Source of the DNA: Sulfuriferula sp. AH1
Lineage (GTDB): Bacteria; Pseudomonadota; Gammaproteobacteria; Burkholderiales; Sulfuriferulaceae
Length of the DNA stretch: 64,000 nt
Assembly (NCBI RefSeq): GCF_002162035.1
Contig: NZ_CP021138.1
Location: forward strand, 558,001-622,000
Direction: 5' to 3'
This document shows, piece by piece, positions 7,187-62,920 of this stretch (the first letter of the stretch is position 1; each line of letters starts with the position of its first letter). The translations under genes were made by a program, and so were the position numbers. The notes under the pieces are model-generated. The model saw nothing but the letters and a program-made list of their open reading frames with translations. It was not told the DNA's origin and did no database searches.

Positions 7187-9208
7187 ATGACAGAAATGCA
7201 GAAACTTTATCTTTTAGTGCCATTGGCTCCGCTGCTGGGTTCGGCGATCGCCGGTCTGTTCGGGTGGGCAATCGGACGTACTTTGTCACACGTAGTGACG
7301 ATTGCCGGGGTCGCGATCTCCTGCTGGGCATCCTGGCTGGTTTTTCAGGATGTGCAGGCGGGCCATGTATTCAATGGCACGGTTTATACCTGGCTGACTA
7401 CGGGCGATATCCGGCTTGAGGTGGGTTTCCTGATCGATTCACTGACCGCAATGATGATGCTGGTTGTGACTTTTGTGTCGCTGATGGTGCATATCTATAC
7501 TATCGGCTATATGCAGGAAGATCCGGGTTATCAGCGCTTTTTCAGCTACATCTCGCTGTTTACCTTCTCCATGCTGATGCTGGTCATGTCGAATAATTTC
7601 ATGCAATTGTTCTTCGGTTGGGAGGCTGTGGGTTTGGTGTCATATCTGCTGATCGGATTCTGGTACACCCGCCCGACTGCGACTTATGCCAATCTGAAGG
7701 CATTTCTGGTTAACCGCGTGGGTGACTTTGGCTTCCTCCTGGGTATCGGCATGGTGCTGGCTTACTTCGGAACGCTGGATTACGCATCGGTATTTGCCCA
7801 GGCTCCGGCAATGGCAAGCCAAACAGTAAGCATCATTCCCGGTCAGGACTGGTCATTAATTACCGTCATCTGCATTTTGCTGTTTATCGGTGCGATGGGC
7901 AAGTCCGCTCAATTCCCGTTGCACGTATGGCTGCCGGATTCGATGGAAGGCCCGACACCGATTTCGGCCCTGATCCATGCGGCTACCATGGTGACCGCCG
8001 GGATATTCATGGTGGCGCGCATGTCACCTGTATTTGAATTATCGCAAACGGCATTATCGTTTGTGATGGTCATCGGTGCGATCACGGCACTGTTCATGGG
8101 TTTTCTCGGTATCATTCAGAACGATATCAAACGGGTGGTGGCCTATTCGACGCTGTCGCAATTGGGCTATATGACCGTGGCTTTAGGTGCTTCTGCCTAC
8201 TCCGTGGCGGTATTCCATCTGATGACCCATGCGTTCTTCAAGGCGCTGCTGTTTCTGGCTGCAGGCTCGGTCATCATGGGCATGCATCACGACCAGGACA
8301 TCCGTAACATGGGCGGCTTGCGCAAATACATGCCGATTACCTGGATTACCTCATTAGTGGGCTCGCTGGCGCTGATCGGTACGCCGTTCCTGTCGGGCTT
8401 TTACTCCAAGGACAGCATTATTGAAGCAGTGCACGTGGCGATGGAGCATGGCGTGGCCGGCTCCGGTTTTGCCTACTTCGCGGTGGTTGCCGGCGTGTTT
8501 GTCACGGCGTTTTATTCATTCCGTATGTATTTCCTGGTGTTCCACGGCAAGGAGCGTTTTGAAACGCACGCGCATCATGACCACCATGACGATGAGCATG
8601 GGCACGACGAACATGGGCATCATGGCGGTGTGCCACATGAATCGCCCTGGGTGATTACCGTGCCGCTCATTTTGCTGGCGATTCCTTCCCTGGCTGTGGG
8701 CTACTTCGCCATTGAACCGATGCTGTTCGGTGATTTTTTCAAGGGCGCCATCTATATCAATCCTGAATTGCATCCGGCGATGGAAGAACTGAGAAATGAA
8801 TTCCACGGCGCTTCGGCCATGGCGGTGCACAGCCTGACCAGCTTGCCGCTGTGGTTGGCGATCTCCGGAGTGGCTCTGGCGTGGTTCTTCTATATGAAGC
8901 GTCCGGATATTCCTGCTGCGATCAAACAGCGCTTTATCATGATTTACAATATTCTTGATAACAAGTACGGGTTTGACACCTTCAATGAATGGTTTTTTGC
9001 AGGCGGAGCACGCGCTTTGGGTGGCATCTTCTGGCGCATAGGCGATGTCAAGATTATTGACGGATTTTTCGTCAACGGTACTGCGCAACTAATCGGCTGG
9101 TTCTCCACCGTAATACGTAAATGGCAATCAGGTTATATTTACCACTATGCTTTTGCCATGATCATTGGTGTGTTTGCCTTGGTCACATGGTTCGTGCGTG
9201 TGGCGTAA
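7187..9208 (+). CDS. nuoL: NADH-quinone oxidoreductase subunit L (antiporter-like)
   Basis: This is the distal antiporter-like subunit of complex I, with 673 residues and about sixteen transmembrane helices plus the long lateral C-terminal helix. Conserved segments include FFGWEAVGLVSYLLIGFW and the proton-channel region HVWLPDSMEGPTPISALIHA. An unusually His/Asp-rich soluble loop is encoded at about 8564-8640, between the helix ending FHGKERF and PHESPWV. It precedes nuoM, the other antiporter-like subunit. Confidence 0.98.
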   Translation: MTEMQKLYLLVPLAPLLGSAIAGLFGWAIGRTLSHVVTIAGVAISCWASWLVFQDVQAGHVFNGTVYTWLTTGDIRLEVGFLIDSLTAMMMLVVTFVSLMVHIYTIGYMQEDPGYQRFFSYISLFTFSMLMLVMSNNFMQLFFGWEAVGLVSYLLIGFWYTRPTATYANLKAFLVNRVGDFGFLLGIGMVLAYFGTLDYASVFAQAPAMASQTVSIIPGQDWSLITVICILLFIGAMGKSAQFPLHVWLPDSMEGPTPISALIHAATMVTAGIFMVARMSPVFELSQTALSFVMVIGAITALFMGFLGIIQNDIKRVVAYSTLSQLGYMTVALGASAYSVAVFHLMTHAFFKALLFLAAGSVIMGMHHDQDIRNMGGLRKYMPITWITSLVGSLALIGTPFLSGFYSKDSIIEAVHVAMEHGVAGSGFAYFAVVAGVFVTAFYSFRMYFLVFHGKERFETHAHHDHHDDEHGHDEHGHHGGVPHESPWVITVPLILLAIPSLAVGYFAIEPMLFGDFFKGAIYINPELHPAMEELRNEFHGASAMAVHSLTSLPLWLAISGVALAWFFYMKRPDIPAAIKQRFIMIYNILDNKYGFDTFNEWFFAGGARALGGIFWRIGDVKIIDGFFVNGTAQLIGWFSTVIRKWQSGYIYHYAFAMIIGVFALVTWFVRVA

Positions 9209-9243
9209 GCCGTTGCAGATAAATATAAACGAATAGGGATTTT

Positions 9244-10731
9244 ATGTTAGCTGGATACCCACTTTTAAGTTTGGCCGTATGGGTGCCGATCATTGCCGGT
9301 GTGCTGGTATTGGCAACAGGTTCGGATCGTAATGCAGCCGCCGCGCGATGGATTGCCTTGTTGGGCTCGATTTTGGCATTTGCGGTTACCTTGCCGTTAT
9401 ATACGCGGTTTGATGTACTGACGTCAAACATGCAGTTTGTCGAATTCGCACACTGGATTCCGACTTTTAACATCAATTACCATCTGGGCGTTGATGGTAT
9501 TTCCATGCCATTTGTGCTGCTGAACAGCTTTACCACCATTTTGGTCGTAATTGCCGGCTGGCAGGTAATACAGAATAAAACGTCTCAATACATGGCCGCG
9601 TTTTTAATCATGTCCGGGTTGATTAACGGCGTGTTTGTGGCACTTGATGCGATACTTTTTTATGTGTTCTTTGAAGCGATGCTGATTCCGTTATTCCTGG
9701 TGATCGGTGTCTGGGGCGGCCCAAGACGGGTATATGCAGCGATTAAATTCTTTCTTTATACCTTGCTGGGTTCGCTGTTAATGCTGGTGGCTTTCCTGTA
9801 CTTGTATTTCCAGTCCGGCGGCAGCTTCGAAATCCTTGACTATCACCGTTTGCCATTGGGCATGACGGCGCAGATCTTGCTGTTTGTGGCGTTTTTCATG
9901 TCCTTTGCGGTCAAGGTGCCGATGTGGCCGGTGCATACCTGGTTGCCGGATGCGCACGTTGAAGCGCCGACTGGTGGTTCGGTCATATTGGCAGCGATCA
10001 CCCTGAAAATTGGTGCGTATGGTTTTCTGCGCTTCAATCTGCCCATCGCGCCGGACGCCAGCCACTACATGACCGGGTTCATCATTACCATTTCCCTGAT
10101 TGCAGTGGTCTACATCGGTCTGGTGGCTTTGGTACAGGGCGACATGAAAAAATTGATCGCTTATTCGTCGATTTCGCATATGGGTTTTGTGACCCTCGGT
10201 TTCTTTCTGTTTAACGCGATAGGCATGGAAGGCGCCCTGGTGCAGATGATATCGCATGGTTTCATTTCTGCTGCGATGTTCCTGAGCGTCGGGGTCATGT
10301 ACGATCGCCTGCATTCACGACAGATTTCTGATTATGGCGGTCTTGCAAACAAAATGCCGATATTCGCTGCATTCCTGATGCTGTTCTCAATGGCAAACTC
10401 CGGGTTGCCGGGAACGAGCGGGTTTATCGGCGAATTCATGGTGATCATGGGCGCAATCAAGGTTAATTTCTGGTATGCCTTCCTTGCAGCCACAACCCTG
10501 ATATTCGGTGCAGCTTATACTCTATGGATGTACAAGCGGGTGATATTCGGCAATGTGACCAATCCGCATGTTGATGAGATGAAGGATATAAGCCCACGTG
10601 AGTTTAGCTTTCTTGCGGTGTTGGCGGTACTGGTGCTGGCCATGGGCATATATCCCAAGCCGGTGACGGATGTCATGCATACATCAGTGAATAATCTGCT
10701 GGCGCACGTTGCGCAAAGCAAACTGCCTTAA
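9244..10731 (+). CDS. nuoM: NADH-quinone oxidoreductase subunit M (antiporter-like)
   Basis: This is a proton-translocating membrane subunit of complex I, 495 residues with about fourteen transmembrane helices. Conserved features are FYVFFEAMLIPLFLVIG with the key glutamate, and the discontinuous-helix region VPMWPVHTWLPDAHVEAPTGGS. It lies 35 bases after nuoL and 23 bases before nuoN. Start ATG 9244 gives MLAGYPLLSLAVW, as in relatives. Confidence 0.98.
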   Translation: MLAGYPLLSLAVWVPIIAGVLVLATGSDRNAAAARWIALLGSILAFAVTLPLYTRFDVLTSNMQFVEFAHWIPTFNINYHLGVDGISMPFVLLNSFTTILVVIAGWQVIQNKTSQYMAAFLIMSGLINGVFVALDAILFYVFFEAMLIPLFLVIGVWGGPRRVYAAIKFFLYTLLGSLLMLVAFLYLYFQSGGSFEILDYHRLPLGMTAQILLFVAFFMSFAVKVPMWPVHTWLPDAHVEAPTGGSVILAAITLKIGAYGFLRFNLPIAPDASHYMTGFIITISLIAVVYIGLVALVQGDMKKLIAYSSISHMGFVTLGFFLFNAIGMEGALVQMISHGFISAAMFLSVGVMYDRLHSRQISDYGGLANKMPIFAAFLMLFSMANSGLPGTSGFIGEFMVIMGAIKVNFWYAFLAATTLIFGAAYTLWMYKRVIFGNVTNPHVDEMKDISPREFSFLAVLAVLVLAMGIYPKPVTDVMHTSVNNLLAHVAQSKLP

Positions 10732-55595: not shown

Positions 55596-55889
55596 ATGGC
55601 AAGCGTAACTGGAATAGCATTAGGGATGATAGAGACACGCGGTCTGGTACCCGCGATTGAAGCGGCAGATGCGATGACCAAGGCGGCGGAAGTGCGTCTG
55701 GTAGGTCGTCAGTTTGTCGGCGGCGGCTACGTGACCGTACTGGTTCGCGGCGAAACAGGCGCGGTAAACGCAGCGGTGCGTGCGGGTGCGGATGCGTGCG
55801 AGCGTGTGGGTGACGGCCTGGTGGCTGCGCACATCATCGCCCGCGTGCATTCCGAAGTGGAAAACATCCTGCCTCACGTCTCCGAGTAA
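55596..55889 (+). CDS. csoS1C: Carboxysome shell hexamer protein CsoS1 (first copy)
   Basis: This 97-residue BMC-H protein is a main facet component. It contains the family helix start [20 protein letters not shown], the pore segment [15 protein letters not shown], and the C-terminus ending ILPHVSE. It begins MASVTG, whereas the other two copies begin MANVSG; the bodies are otherwise nearly identical. The symbol follows the order and lengths in Halothiobacillus. AAAGGAG lies upstream. Confidence 0.97.
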
Positions 55890-55941
55890 TCGGGCAATAA
55901 GCAGGTCTGAAATCAACTGAATCTGAGGAGGGGTATTTAAA

Positions 55942-56235
55942 ATGGCAAACGTAAGCGGAATAGCATTAGGCATGATCGAGACGCGCGGTCTGGTACCCGC
56001 GATTGAAGCGGCAGATGCGATGACCAAGGCGGCGGAAGTGCGTCTGGTAGGTCGTCAGTTTGTCGGCGGCGGCTACGTGACCGTACTGGTTCGCGGCGAA
56101 ACAGGCGCGGTAAACGCAGCGGTGCGTGCGGGTGCGGATGCGTGCGAGCGTGTGGGTGACGGCCTGGTGGCTGCGCACATCATCGCCCGCGTGCATTCCG
56201 AAGTGGAAAACATCCTGCCTCACGTCTCCGAATAA
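55942..56235 (+). CDS. csoS1A: Carboxysome shell hexamer protein CsoS1 (second copy)
   Basis: This 97-residue BMC-H protein differs from the first copy only in the first few residues. The DNA of the two genes and of the spacers after them is nearly identical, with a repeat period of about 346 bp. A strong GAGGAGGGG lies upstream. Near-identity at silent positions suggests recent duplication or gene conversion. Confidence 0.97.
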
Positions 56236-56288
56236 TCGGGCAATAAGCAGGTCTGAAATCAATTGAATCTGATAAGGAGTATTTAAAA

Positions 56289-56615
56289 ATGGCAAACGTA
56301 AGCGGAATAGCATTAGGCATGATCGAGACGCGCGGTCTGGTACCCGCGATTGAAGCAGCAGACGCGATGACCAAGGCGGCGGAAGTGCGTCTGGTAGGTC
56401 GTCAGTTTGTCGGCGGCGGCTATGTGACCGTACTGGTTCGCGGCGAAACAGGCGCGGTAAACGCAGCGGTGCGTGCGGGTGCGGATGCGTGTGAGCGTGT
56501 GGGTGACGGCCTGGTGGCTGCGCACATCATCGCCCGCGTGCATTCCGAAGTGGAAAACATCCTGCCGAGCACCCCCGATGCCAGTATCACCGGCAATGAC
56601 GGCAACATCAGCTGA
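56289..56615 (+). CDS. csoS1B: Carboxysome shell hexamer protein CsoS1, C-terminally extended (third copy)
   Basis: This 108-residue BMC-H protein has the same body as the two upstream copies, but the C-terminus diverges after VENILP into a polar tail ([15 protein letters not shown]). This matches the extended CsoS1B of Halothiobacillus, hence the symbol. The tail would project from the hexamer face. It is followed by the ferritin-like gene after 31 bases. Confidence 0.97.
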
Positions 56616-59360: not shown

Positions 59361-61712
59361 ATGGCGGTTGAACTCGAAAAGTATCAAGACATATTGGACG
59401 AGCTCGGGGAGCACGCGGGCGAAGTGCTGCGCGCTTCCTGGGGCGAAGCTGCGCGGGTGTTCAGTCCGCGTGGGCTTGAGAGCTATTACCTGCAAGGTGC
59501 GACCGGGCTGAAATCGCTGGGGCGTGGCACCGATCTTGTGGTGTCGTTTATCCAGAACGCACCTGCCGTCGCGCGCGAACTGGGTGAGGATGCGGTGAGC
59601 GACCTGCTCGCCGCGGCAATCAAGATGTATTCCAAGACCAGCGCCACGGTTATCGCTTCGATATTTTCCACCAGCCCGGTAGCGGCTTCGCGTCTGGGCG
59701 ACGCAGATCTATTCCGGGGCTACCTGCATTTGCTCGATACCCTGCTGGCACAAGCGCCGCGCGGGGTGCGTCCGATGCTGGATCATCTGAGCACGCTGCT
59801 GGGCCAGTTGACATTGGGCGGATTGCGGCGCTGGGCGCTGTGGGGCGCGCAGGCGCACAAGACCAATTTCGACGGGCAGCTCAAGTATTTCAGTCTGGAA
59901 AGCCCTGAATCCATCGGTGTGCTGCAAAAGGAACGCAAGGGCACCCTGTTCATTGACGTGCAGCGTCGCATCGGCATGTACTTGCGCGCCTTGTGGGGAC
60001 GCGACTTCTTTATGCGCCCAACCAGCGGCGACTTCGAACAGCGCGAAGGCTACCGCCCCTCGATCGAGGGTTACATCATCCATTTGCCCGATGCTTACGA
60101 TGATTTTGTGTTTAATTCGCCCTCGGGCGAGGGAATGCGCATCCCCGGCATCGAGCTGTACCGCGCCAGCGCCGCCCACGCGGCTTGCCATCAGGTTTAT
60201 ACCGTTAACCAGTTTGACAGCGCCGGGTTGAACCTGCTGCAGATGGAGCTGATAGGGCTGATCGAGGATGCGCGCGTGGAAGGGCTGGCGCTGGCGCAGT
60301 TTCCGGGTCTTCAACAGATATGGATCCCTTTGCATACAGCCACGCCGCAATCCGGCGACACCGCCGCAGCGTTGATGGCGCGGCTGGCGCGTGTACTGTT
60401 GGATAAGGATTACCGCGACGATCATCCCTGGGTGACGCTGGGCCGCCGTCTGTTTGACGAGCAGCAGGGTCAGCCTGAACCCACCGTATGGGTGCGTGAT
60501 ATCGGCCTGCGCCTGGCGGATGAAATGCAGGCGCTAGGAGTCAGCTACAGTAAATCGAACGATGTGGTCGATATTCCGTACCGGGATGACAACCGTTACA
60601 TGTGGGAATTCGAGGATGTCCGCGAAACCGTAGAGGTGATTGCCGGCAGCAATCCCAAGCAAATCCGCAAATACGTCAGCGTGATGGAAATGATCAACGC
60701 CATCGATGTACCTGGTGCGGGCGACGACGCCAATGAAATCTGGGTGCTGGCCACCGAGTTTTTTCGTGATGAGGAAACCACCAGCCTGAACGAGCAGGAA
60801 GGCCGTGAGCCGCCGCCGGATCCCTACCATTACCCGGAGTGGGATTACCAGATGCAGCTGGACCGCCCGGACTGGTGCACGGTGCTGGAAAAGCGCCCCA
60901 AGTCCGGCGACGTGGAAGTCATTGATGACATTGTGGTCAAGCACAAGCCGATCGTGGGCCGGCTCAAGTACCTGATCGAAGCCATGCAGCCGCAGGGCGT
61001 GCAGCGCCTGCGCAAGCAGGAGGACGGCGACGAGATCGACCTCAACGCCGCGGTGCGCGCCATGATCGAGATGCGCATGGGCGAGCAGCCCGACCCGCGC
61101 ATCATGATGCGCAATGTGCGCAAGGTGCGCGATCTGTCGGTGCTACTGCTGATCGACCTGTCTGAATCCACCAATGACACGGTGCTGGGTTCGGATAGCA
61201 CAGTGCTGCAACTGGCGCGCGAAGCCACGGTGCTGCTGGCCGATGCCCTCAACAAGATCGGCGATCCCTTTGCGATCCACGGTTTCGATTCCAACGGCCG
61301 TCACGATGTGGAGTATTTCCGCTACAAGGATTTCGGCATGCCCTACAACGATCAGGCCAAATCCCGCCTGGCAGGCATGAGCGGGCAGCTTTCTACCCGT
61401 ATGGGTGCTGCGATGCGCCATGCCGGTTCGATCCTGAAGCGCCAGCCCAGCAATAAAAAGTTGCTGCTGGTGATTACCGACGGTGAACCCGCTGACAATG
61501 ATGTGCGCGATCCTCAATACCTGCGTTTTGACGCCAAAAAAGCGGTGGAAGAATTGACGCGCAATGGCATCGCCACTTATTGCCTGAGTCTTGACCCGCG
61601 AGCCGACCAGTACGTGTCGCGTATCTTTGGCGCCAAGAACTACATGGTGGTGGACCACGTGCAAAAACTGCCCGAAAAGTTGCCGCTCCTGTACATGGGA
61701 CTCACGCGATGA
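59361..61712 (+). CDS. cbbO: RubisCO activase adaptor CbbO (VWA domain)
   Basis: This 783-residue adaptor pairs with CbbQ and delivers it to RubisCO. The large N-terminal helical part (about 1-500) is followed by a C-terminal von Willebrand A domain (about 590-783) with the MIDAS motif LIDLSESTND and a later ITDGEPADND. This is the known CbbO architecture. The stop overlaps an ATG of the next frame (ATGA, 61709-61712). Confidence 0.96.
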   Translation: MAVELEKYQDILDELGEHAGEVLRASWGEAARVFSPRGLESYYLQGATGLKSLGRGTDLVVSFIQNAPAVARELGEDAVSDLLAAAIKMYSKTSATVIASIFSTSPVAASRLGDADLFRGYLHLLDTLLAQAPRGVRPMLDHLSTLLGQLTLGGLRRWALWGAQAHKTNFDGQLKYFSLESPESIGVLQKERKGTLFIDVQRRIGMYLRALWGRDFFMRPTSGDFEQREGYRPSIEGYIIHLPDAYDDFVFNSPSGEGMRIPGIELYRASAAHAACHQVYTVNQFDSAGLNLLQMELIGLIEDARVEGLALAQFPGLQQIWIPLHTATPQSGDTAAALMARLARVLLDKDYRDDHPWVTLGRRLFDEQQGQPEPTVWVRDIGLRLADEMQALGVSYSKSNDVVDIPYRDDNRYMWEFEDVRETVEVIAGSNPKQIRKYVSVMEMINAIDVPGAGDDANEIWVLATEFFRDEETTSLNEQEGREPPPDPYHYPEWDYQMQLDRPDWCTVLEKRPKSGDVEVIDDIVVKHKPIVGRLKYLIEAMQPQGVQRLRKQEDGDEIDLNAAVRAMIEMRMGEQPDPRIMMRNVRKVRDLSVLLLIDLSESTNDTVLGSDSTVLQLAREATVLLADALNKIGDPFAIHGFDSNGRHDVEYFRYKDFGMPYNDQAKSRLAGMSGQLSTRMGAAMRHAGSILKRQPSNKKLLLVITDGEPADNDVRDPQYLRFDAKKAVEELTRNGIATYCLSLDPRADQYVSRIFGAKNYMVVDHVQKLPEKLPLLYMGLTR

Positions 61713-61948
61713 AACAGATGCCGCACAGTTCCGGCAACCGGGTGCGAGTGAAGGTGGCCGCGCGTCGCCCAGGCGTCCCCGCGGTTATTTATCCGGATCA
61801 TGGCGCCCGCCTGGAATCGGCAGCGCGGGTGATCCGCTCGGATTGCAACGGCGTCACGGTGGACGTCTCTCATTTGCCGTTCGGAGGGAATCTCCATCCC
61901 CCGCGCTGTTGCAAGTCGGGCTGTCAGAACTTGGAAGGAGGTAACAGC
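61709..61948 (+). other. Aldolase-fragment segment fused in frame ahead of the aldolase-like gene
   Basis: Starting at an ATG that overlaps the cbbO stop, 80 codons run in frame into the next gene. Residues about 23-61 (VPAVIYPDHGARLESAARVI, then GVTVDVSHLPFGGN) match the class II aldolase core, including the Asp-His pair of the active site (D30, H31). They align to a region that the downstream full domain also contains. It is either an N-terminal extension of one 403-residue protein or a relic of an older aldolase gene. Confidence 0.6.
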
Positions 61949-62920
61949 ATGCCCTTGGTGAATATGACAGATATGTTGCACCACGCCTATCATCACGGAT
62001 ACGCGGTGGGCGCGTTCGGCGTGGCTGGCTGGGATATTTTGGAAGGTGTGGTTGCGGCTGCCGAAGGTATGCGCGCTCCGATTATTCTGAGTGTCTCCAA
62101 ATCTTATCCGGGAACTGACAGCATCGAATCCCTGGCGCGTGCGGTGGTCGAAATGGGGCAGCGCGCCTCGATTCCCGTGGCATTCCAGATCGAGGTGGAA
62201 GACAACCCGCAGGCAGCTGCTGCAGCGATCAGCATGGGTTGCGACGGAGTCGTGTTCAACGCTTCCTCACATTCGCTGCCCGATAATGTGAAGCTGACTC
62301 AAAAAGTCGTTGAGTTGGCGGCTACCCAGGGTGTTTTGGTGGTCGGGCAAGTGGGTCAGCTAGAGAGCGGGGAGGCCAATGATGCGGCAGAGTCTGTGGT
62401 CAACGGTTCGACGTCTCCGTCCGAAGCCAAATATTACGTTGAGCGTACCGGCGTGGGTTGTCTGGCAGTATCGGTCAACCGCATGAATAGCGGTGGTAAC
62501 AAGTATGACTTTACCCGGCTTTCGAAAATAAATCAGGCCGTGGGTATTCCTCTCGGTATCCACGGCAGTGCGGGTTTCACCGACGACCAGTTGCGGCGCA
62601 TGATCAGTTTCGGCGCGACTAAAATCAACTACAGCTCGGTGCTGTTCGATGTCGCCGCGCGACGTATCCGGGAGAATGCATTGGCTGGGGTCGAAGGTTA
62701 TGCCGCTACCATGGAAGGAGTGCGCGCTGCGGTTCGTCTCGAAGTGGAACGCTGCATCAGGGTGTGGGGCGGTGGCGGCCGCGCGGCGGAAGTGCTGTTG
62801 CAGTGCCGGCTGCGGAAGCCCACCCCCACCCTCACAAATTTGGTAGGCGACATCGGAGAAGCGGTGACTGGCGGCGCGGCAGGAAGTGTGAAAGCTGTTT
62901 TCAGCAAGCCAATTCAATGA
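61949..62920 (+). CDS. Class II fructose-bisphosphate aldolase-like protein with degenerate active site
   Basis: This 323-residue TIM-barrel protein starts MPLVNMTDMLHHAYHHGYAV after a near-perfect AAGGAGGT ribosome site (61935-61942). The fold is that of class II ketose-bisphosphate aldolases. Where the family has LHLDH the sequence reads FQIEV, and the second zinc His region reads VNRMNSGGNKYDF, so the catalytic Asp and two zinc ligands are missing. The later IHGSAG His and INYSSV phosphate loop remain. Aldolase activity is therefore doubtful. It follows cbbO and overlaps the Sua5-like gene by four bases. Confidence 0.8.
   Translation: MPLVNMTDMLHHAYHHGYAVGAFGVAGWDILEGVVAAAEGMRAPIILSVSKSYPGTDSIESLARAVVEMGQRASIPVAFQIEVEDNPQAAAAAISMGCDGVVFNASSHSLPDNVKLTQKVVELAATQGVLVVGQVGQLESGEANDAAESVVNGSTSPSEAKYYVERTGVGCLAVSVNRMNSGGNKYDFTRLSKINQAVGIPLGIHGSAGFTDDQLRRMISFGATKINYSSVLFDVAARRIRENALAGVEGYAATMEGVRAAVRLEVERCIRVWGGGGRAAEVLLQCRLRKPTPTLTNLVGDIGEAVTGGAAGSVKAVFSKPIQ

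Follow-up and report, generated by a model that had tools for sequence, protein, structure and literature searches.

The window analysed here is a stretch of 64,000 nucleotides from the sulfur-oxidising bacterium Sulfuriferula sp. AH1 (contig NZ_CP021138.1, positions 558,001 to 622,000 of the forward strand), and our subject is the aldolase-like gene that lies in it behind cbbO of a carboxysome locus. The genes before it are arranged in the order csoS2-csoS3-csoS4AB-csoS1(x3)-Bfr-acRAF-mcdA-cbbQ-cbbO, and a Sua5/YrdC gene follows; searches support the names CsoSCA and Sua5 and the ParA and VWA domains, and the remaining names were recognised from the sequence. The immediate upstream neighbour presumably encodes CbbO, i.e. 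the VWA protein which we take to be the partner of the RubisCO activase CbbQ. A frame of 403 codons (61709-62920, plus strand) begins at an ATG overlapping the stop of cbbO and contains an inner ATG at 61949, with GGAAGGAGG located 7 nt 5' of it. Both starts named in a preliminary description of this DNA, one coupled to cbbO and one with a strong ribosome-binding site, are indeed present. The features of the locus are collected in Table 1.

Table 1. Features in and around the aldolase-like frame of Sulfuriferula sp. AH1 (positions in the window; L-numbers denote loci and G-numbers genomes of the comparison set).
Feature	Position	Strand	Evidence and remarks
cbbO, gene before the 403-codon frame	59361..61712	+	783 aa; Pfam VWA 9.3e-8; same-strand upstream neighbour in 9/10 clade-B members
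Putative psiE start remnant of 14 codons; its ATG overlaps the cbbO stop	61709..61750	+	agrees with the psiE start of L035:5533 at 28/42 nt
Putative remnant of a RubisCO-operon aldolase of intact type (long-frame residues 14-63), YPDHG kept	61748..61897	+	Pfam 1.6e-5; psiE match extends into its first codon
Shine-Dalgarno sequence GGAAGGAGG for the inner ATG	61933..61941	+	read directly in the sequence
Clade-B pseudo-aldolase gene (323 codons and a stop)	61949..62920	+	most likely the real protein
Catalytic Asp82-His83 replaced by Glu-Val	62192..62197	+	alignment to 7nc7 and family rows
Lost zinc ligand His180, now Asn	62486..62488	+	alignment to 7nc7 and family rows
Third zinc-ligand His still present, H205 in GIHGSAG (corresponds to His208)	62561..62563	+	alignment to 7nc7 and family rows

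The 403-residue protein matches the Pfam family F_bP_aldolase (PF01116) over residues 84-356 (2.2e-55 for the whole protein), and the 323-residue form alone scores 167.8 bits against a gathering score of 25.5, in line with the predicted class II aldolase fold of the product of 61949-62920. None of the NCBIfam equivalog cut-offs is reached by the 323-residue form, the best score being 152.8 bits against 406 for PRK06801.1, with 121.6 against 215.6 for TIGR00167 cbbA. In the alignment to the solved class II aldolase 7nc7, FQIEVE stands opposite IHLDHG and NRMN opposite GSVH, i.e. Asp82 is replaced by Glu, His83 by Val and His180 by Asn; the loss of the LHLDH motif and of another zinc histidine, as claimed in the preliminary description, is thereby confirmed. 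We take His83, His180 and His208 of tagatose-bisphosphate aldolase to be the zinc ligands and Asp82 to be the base; among these four, the third histidine alone remains in the AH1 protein (H205), a point to be added to the earlier description. Compared with the class II fructose-bisphosphate and tagatose-bisphosphate aldolases 7nc7, 1gvf and 6ofu, the AH1 protein has also lost Glu134, now Gln, and the phosphate-loop serine.

The same protein is carried by nine other genomes at 71-85% identity, eight of the same genus and one (G045) of another family, and the ten members together are referred to as clade B. Glu82 is present in all ten, position 83 is Val in nine and Ile in one, and His180 is replaced throughout (by Asn, Thr, Cys or Ile as aligned); the phosphate-loop serine or threonine has become Ala, Gly or Val, and Glu134 has become Gln or Arg. 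In nine members, cbbO precedes the gene in the same orientation, and DabBA or SulP is interposed in six of these; the region of the tenth (L082) begins at DabB. Of all ten, eight have cso genes or mcdA in reach. The ratio of non-synonymous to synonymous substitution rates (dN/dS, NG86) had a median of 0.098 and a maximum of 0.152, compared with 0.118 for three intact Sulfuriferula paralogues; these ratios are rough, as 13 of the 45 clade-B pairs were dropped because dS was not computable or was at least 3, and the median dS of the 32 usable pairs was 1.57. Even with dS so high, the low dN/dS and the Glu82 common to all ten members argue strongly that the main domain is not decaying. Loss of catalytic residues kept under purifying selection, the mark of a pseudoenzyme, is thus found in every member of the clade.

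The 323-residue form starting at 61949 is most likely the real protein. Its initial MPLV, searched for as such, is present in all ten clade-B members and is preceded by GGAG in eight of them (the exceptions are L083 and L084). An earlier in-frame start is present in the window gene, L076, L078 and L080, and absent in the other six.

We regard 61949-62920, with a probability of roughly 0.65, as the gene of a conserved pseudo-aldolase having a non-catalytic role in RubisCO maintenance, a role that we infer, and the upstream part of the long frame as a relic. The protein would no longer perform metal-dependent aldol chemistry, and would act as a non-catalytic accessory of RubisCO or of inorganic-carbon metabolism. 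The proposal of the preliminary description that it might be a non-catalytic RubisCO-associated factor finds support in the fact that all ten members have Glu82 and lack His83 and His180, in the purifying selection and in the position downstream of cbbO in nine of the ten. The gene would have originated in a class II aldolase family, often provided with a C-terminal Dabb domain, whose members in cbb operons follow RubisCO and its activase, either CbbQO or CbbX. The copy of the carboxysome locus, found in Sulfuriferula and in one genome of another family, has no Asp-His pair, second zinc histidine or Dabb tail, and is held under strong purifying selection. Its accessory action could be that of a sugar-phosphate binder, with the ligand in the remodelled pocket, or could consist in docking through residues common to intact and degenerate members (H12, R190, G222 and the C-terminal G..GRA motif).

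An intact member of this family is present in AH1 itself (L085:7312-8490, minus strand). It comprises 392 residues, is 48% identical to the window protein over the barrel, and shares with it H12, R190, the GRA motif and the position behind a cbbO; it differs in its intact metal site, its C-terminal Dabb domain and its location in a non-carboxysomal cbb operon, behind a second cbbLS-cbbQ-cbbO. The window protein shows two features of the family, namely the same-strand position downstream of cbbO and the C-terminal G..GRA motif. Dabb (PF07876) was detected by Pfam in the AH1 paralogue, L090 and L111, and not in the window protein; 34 of the 39 intact family members in cbb context are at least 370 aa long and five are shorter, and therefore some intact members seem to be without Dabb, which is usual in the family and not constant. 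Among the 53 alignment rows in cbb context (a context that requires CbbL, CbbO or CbbX within reach and no carboxysome gene), CbbO or CbbX lies upstream on the same strand in all 53 and CbbL in 47. Because the family sits behind either type of activase, this arrangement points to a function that would serve RubisCO upkeep rather than the sugar cycle as such.

In searches at increasing taxonomic breadth, 34 of 399 genomes of the order matched at E <= 1e-30 and 64 of 369 genomes of the class at E <= 1e-50, some of the latter with generic aldolases. At the same threshold, 27 of 398 genomes of the phylum matched; besides G000, four of them exceeded 540 bits (G856, G985, G986 and G1011), and the remaining matches, up to 276 bits, are taken for probable generic aldolases. 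Among 72,556 plasmid records, 116 matched, all below 60% identity, and the best 15 of the 116 look like ordinary aldolases. The idea that clade B is the obligate partner of an intact family member was rejected, as four of the ten clade-B genomes (G001, G007, G008 and G045) hold no second member at E <= 1e-30.

The loss of the metal site was compared with carboxysome linkage, by counting D82, H83, H180 and H208 in the readable rows. In non-carboxysomal cbb loci (52 readable rows), 39 rows keep all four residues, 11 keep three (nine H180Q, three of them in Sulfuriferula clade C, one H180R and one D82E) and two keep at most two, namely L092 of clade C and L078 of clade B, whose cso genes are out of range. 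In cso-linked loci (20 readable rows), three keep all four (L165, L164 and L156) and 17 keep at most two; the three McdA-linked rows, all of clade B, keep one. Finally, 29 readable rows have none of these neighbours within reach; 22 of them keep four, two keep three and five keep at most two (L082 of clade B, L090, L144, L166 and L167). A family member at >=270 bits is held by 21 of 67 other CsoSCA-bearing genomes; 12 of these members are cso-linked (nine degenerate, three intact) and nine are not (one degenerate), the member of G608 being judged from two pieces. The cso-linked degenerate copies include clade D (L111-L114), which, like the AH1 gene, follows McdA and CbbO in a cso operon and is constrained (dN/dS 0.11). 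Unlike the AH1 protein, clade D has lost all four residues, by other replacements, and has kept Dabb (Pfam run on L111).

Several observations on related copies may be recorded here. Clade C is a second Sulfuriferula clade, found in a non-carboxysomal cbb operon (L091:8017-8925, L092:7430-8329, L093:7706-8614 and L094:9903-10811); it has lost H180 (Gln) and E134 (Lys or Ile), has no tail of Dabb length (297-299 aa), and shows a dN/dS of about 0.03 (three usable pairs of six). Replacement of His180 by Gln also occurs in seven further RubisCO-family aldolases (L120, L121, L136, L139, L141, L142 and L143), and the solved structure 5ud3 is the H180Q variant of the Helicobacter pylori enzyme. In G439, two degenerate aldolase-like genes stand back to back beside cso and Dab genes (L191:7573-8532 and 8637-9743). 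In the draft genome G608, a cso-linked family member is split into two frames (L192:5808-6961), by an assembly error or as a pseudogene.

The best tree, built on 104 rows after removal of those that were too short or gapped at any of the four sites, places the cso-linked degenerate rows in four groups, two of which are forced by starred branches. It should be noted that L078 and L082, whose regions show only CbbQ-CbbO-DabBA or DabBA-SulP, were counted as cso-linked in this tree and not in the site count. With these 104 rows, a common origin of clades B and D was not rejected by the approximately unbiased (AU) test (p 0.46). With 41 rows, a single origin of clades B, C and D plus L090 gave p 0.021, the groups having been named after viewing the tree, and common origins of B+D (p 0.056), B+D+L090 (p 0.166) and B+C (p 0.125) were not rejected. 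The association of metal-site loss with carboxysomes is strong if copies are counted, and weak if independent events are.

Besides general fold residues, H12, R190, G222, G274, G277, R278 and A279 do not vary among the lettered rows, whether of clade B (10 rows) or of the other cso-linked degenerate copies (12 rows); in the latter, D82, H83 and H208 each survive in one row and H180 in none. In seven generic aldolases, H12 is rare (0.14) and R278 absent (0.0). Since H12, R190, G222 and the GRA motif are kept while the site goes, a shared non-catalytic surface is favoured over a shared new chemistry. A broader generalisation can be offered only tentatively: an aldolase of RubisCO maintenance, found behind both activase types, may turn non-catalytic once its locus is carboxysomal, possibly on several independent occasions, and the kept residues (H12, R190, G222, GRA) would then make it an undescribed accessory of alpha-carboxysomal RubisCO.

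A number of results weigh against a non-catalytic, carboxysome-related role. Of the cso-linked copies, three are intact. Five copies without cso linkage are degenerate (L090, L092, L144, L166 and L167), so that the loss also occurs elsewhere than in carboxysome loci. In 46 of the 67 other CsoSCA-bearing genomes, no family member reached 270 bits, and therefore the aldolase-like protein is not essential for carboxysomes. The rows are not independent, because, among the 23 readable rows with cso or McdA linkage, clade B accounts for eight and clade D for four, and a single origin of all cso-linked degenerate rows is not rejected by the AU test on 104 rows (p 0.155). Independent pairs amount to two on starred branches and six on all branches, so few that no significance can be claimed for the association of linkage and loss. 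The degenerate clades have no common replacement residues. Finally, clade B keeps H205, K225 and N227, together with conserved Glu at 82 and 84, and therefore another chemistry is possible.

Such a chemistry is at the basis of the best-placed alternative, which we nevertheless consider unlikely: a neofunctionalised enzyme, in which a pocket with Glu82, Glu84, His205, Lys225 and Asn227 would catalyse another reaction, metal-free or differently metallated, on a RubisCO-related sugar phosphate. These five residues are invariant in clade B, where 53 invariant positions differ from the intact consensus (including 82, 84, 104, 132 and 207), and the constraint is about equal to that of the intact enzyme. 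However, the replacement of the phosphate-loop serine or threonine and of Glu134 in clade B does not favour this explanation, and the other cso-linked degenerate clades keep few pocket residues, with none of the four sites in clade D and N227 in none of the 12 rows.

Ordinary decay, in which an aldolase dispensable in carboxysomal loci is being lost, would agree with the missing family member in those 46 genomes, with the presence of strongly divergent, long-branched cso-linked copies and with the frameshift-split copy L192. It appears quite improbable, considering that dN/dS is close to 0.1 in clade B as well as in clade D and that all clade-B members have Glu82. Still less probable is a class II aldolase that remains active with altered metal binding, because, while the predicted fold and the third zinc histidine are retained, the Asp base and two of the three zinc histidines are gone and no NCBIfam cut-off is reached.

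The conserved pseudo-aldolase that we prefer as the product of 61949-62920 leaves the upstream part of the long frame to be explained. This part is best read as a relic, in which a psiE start would have become fused to an internal stretch of an aldolase of intact type. As stated in the preliminary description, the upstream in-frame codons do match the same aldolase region and keep the Asp-His pair: residues 14-63 of the long frame alone match F_bP_aldolase profile positions 65-114 (25.0 bits, just below the gathering score), so that the aldolase piece amounts to 50 residues within 80 codons, with the pair kept as YPDHG. The open upstream frame is weak evidence in itself, because, when the 237-nt stretch was dinucleotide-shuffled 2000 times, 480 of the products were equally open. 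The first 14 codons match a psiE start and not an aldolase, none of 20000 codon shuffles being as good, and therefore the start coupled to cbbO is most likely an old psiE start. A whole psiE gene (L035:5533, Pfam PsiE 2.4e-25) stands between cbbO and the pseudo-aldolase in G007, and the short spacer of G006 matches the psiE start at 37 of 60 bases.

With rows having more than five gaps in the 50 columns omitted, the 14 rows closest to the 50-residue piece all have an intact site (25-29 identical residues), whereas the intact Sulfuriferula paralogues share 20-22, clade D 19-20, clade C 14-17 and clade B 9-13. The piece is nearer to intact-type aldolases than to clade B, and therefore was not copied from the neighbouring main gene. 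When the fragment was searched for in 18 genomes of the same genus, 10 matched, and beyond the window's own place all the matches listed lay in separate family genes, none of them before a clade-B gene; in the loci of the nine other clade-B members its best tblastn match had an E of 3.4, and the fused frame was found in none of the nine. Deletions between cbbO and the real gene may have left the psiE start and the aldolase remnant as a scar, in a presumed order of events.

That the 403-residue fusion is functional, its upstream segment restoring Asp-His to the defective barrel as in the enzyme rebuilt from two pieces that had been proposed, is the least probable explanation of all and was rejected: the frame is open and the piece retains the pair, but it was found in AH1 only, has just 50 residues and lacks the other zinc histidine, follows 14 codons of psiE type, is matched in openness by so many shuffles, appears unfolded in the model (residues 1-81 below a predicted local distance difference test score, pLDDT, of 50, with no aligned rows covering them), and precedes an inner start that has a strong ribosome site and an MPLV common to all ten members, six of which have no earlier in-frame start. 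Absence of the fused frame in close relatives had been put forward as a sign of random decay; this holds for the fused part, and does not fit the conserved main domain.

The position of an aldolase gene behind a carboxysomal cbbO is already known from Acidithiobacillus ferrooxidans, in which cbbA (AFE_1676) ends the carboxysomal cbb1 operon, behind cbbO1, and is called a fructose-bisphosphate aldolase in the accessible text of two papers (Esparza et al., 2010, PMC2942843; a 2019 paper, PMC6458275). Its domains are given as Pfam01116 and Pfam07876 (PMC2942843), so that, by this description, which leaves the metal site unmentioned, it differs from the AH1 protein in having Dabb. PF01116 has also been reported as enriched together with the Calvin cycle, with no mention of metal sites in the text available (PMC7895386). 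Loss of the metal site in carboxysome-linked aldolase copies was not found mentioned in the accessible literature on carboxysomes, aldolase, cbbO, Dabb and pseudoenzymes, a scope that left out most subscription papers; nor did searches of the same literature for the Dabb domain with aldolase, or for the A B barrel domain with aldolase and Rubisco, return a paper. The word 'aldolase' is absent from the main text of a 2026 review (PMC12918739), of PMC8718961 and of PMC12285272.

Carboxysome loci carry satellite genes without an assigned role, and the gene at this position is annotated, as far as the A. ferrooxidans cbbA descriptions go, as an ordinary Calvin-cycle aldolase. In the AH1 copy and in most of the carboxysome-linked copies examined, the catalytic residues are gone in spite of this annotation, and such a gene should not be counted as a working aldolase in metabolic models. 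If the protein is indeed a RubisCO accessory, it would be a component of the CO2-concentrating machinery omitted by engineering efforts, and the intact family would indicate a sugar-phosphate clean-up step beside the activase.

Some minor features of these loci may be added. Two small proteins adjoining cbbO in L085 (9014-9316 and 8534-9010) match no Pfam family at E 0.01, and their markers are matched in 34 and 18 of 109 loci, respectively. A DUF6671 gene (Pfam run on L112) is present near carboxysome or Dab genes in eight of the 109 loci (L111-L114, L078, L080, L081 and L166). In the window itself, three nearly identical genes, recognised from sequence as csoS1, stand in tandem at 55596-56615.

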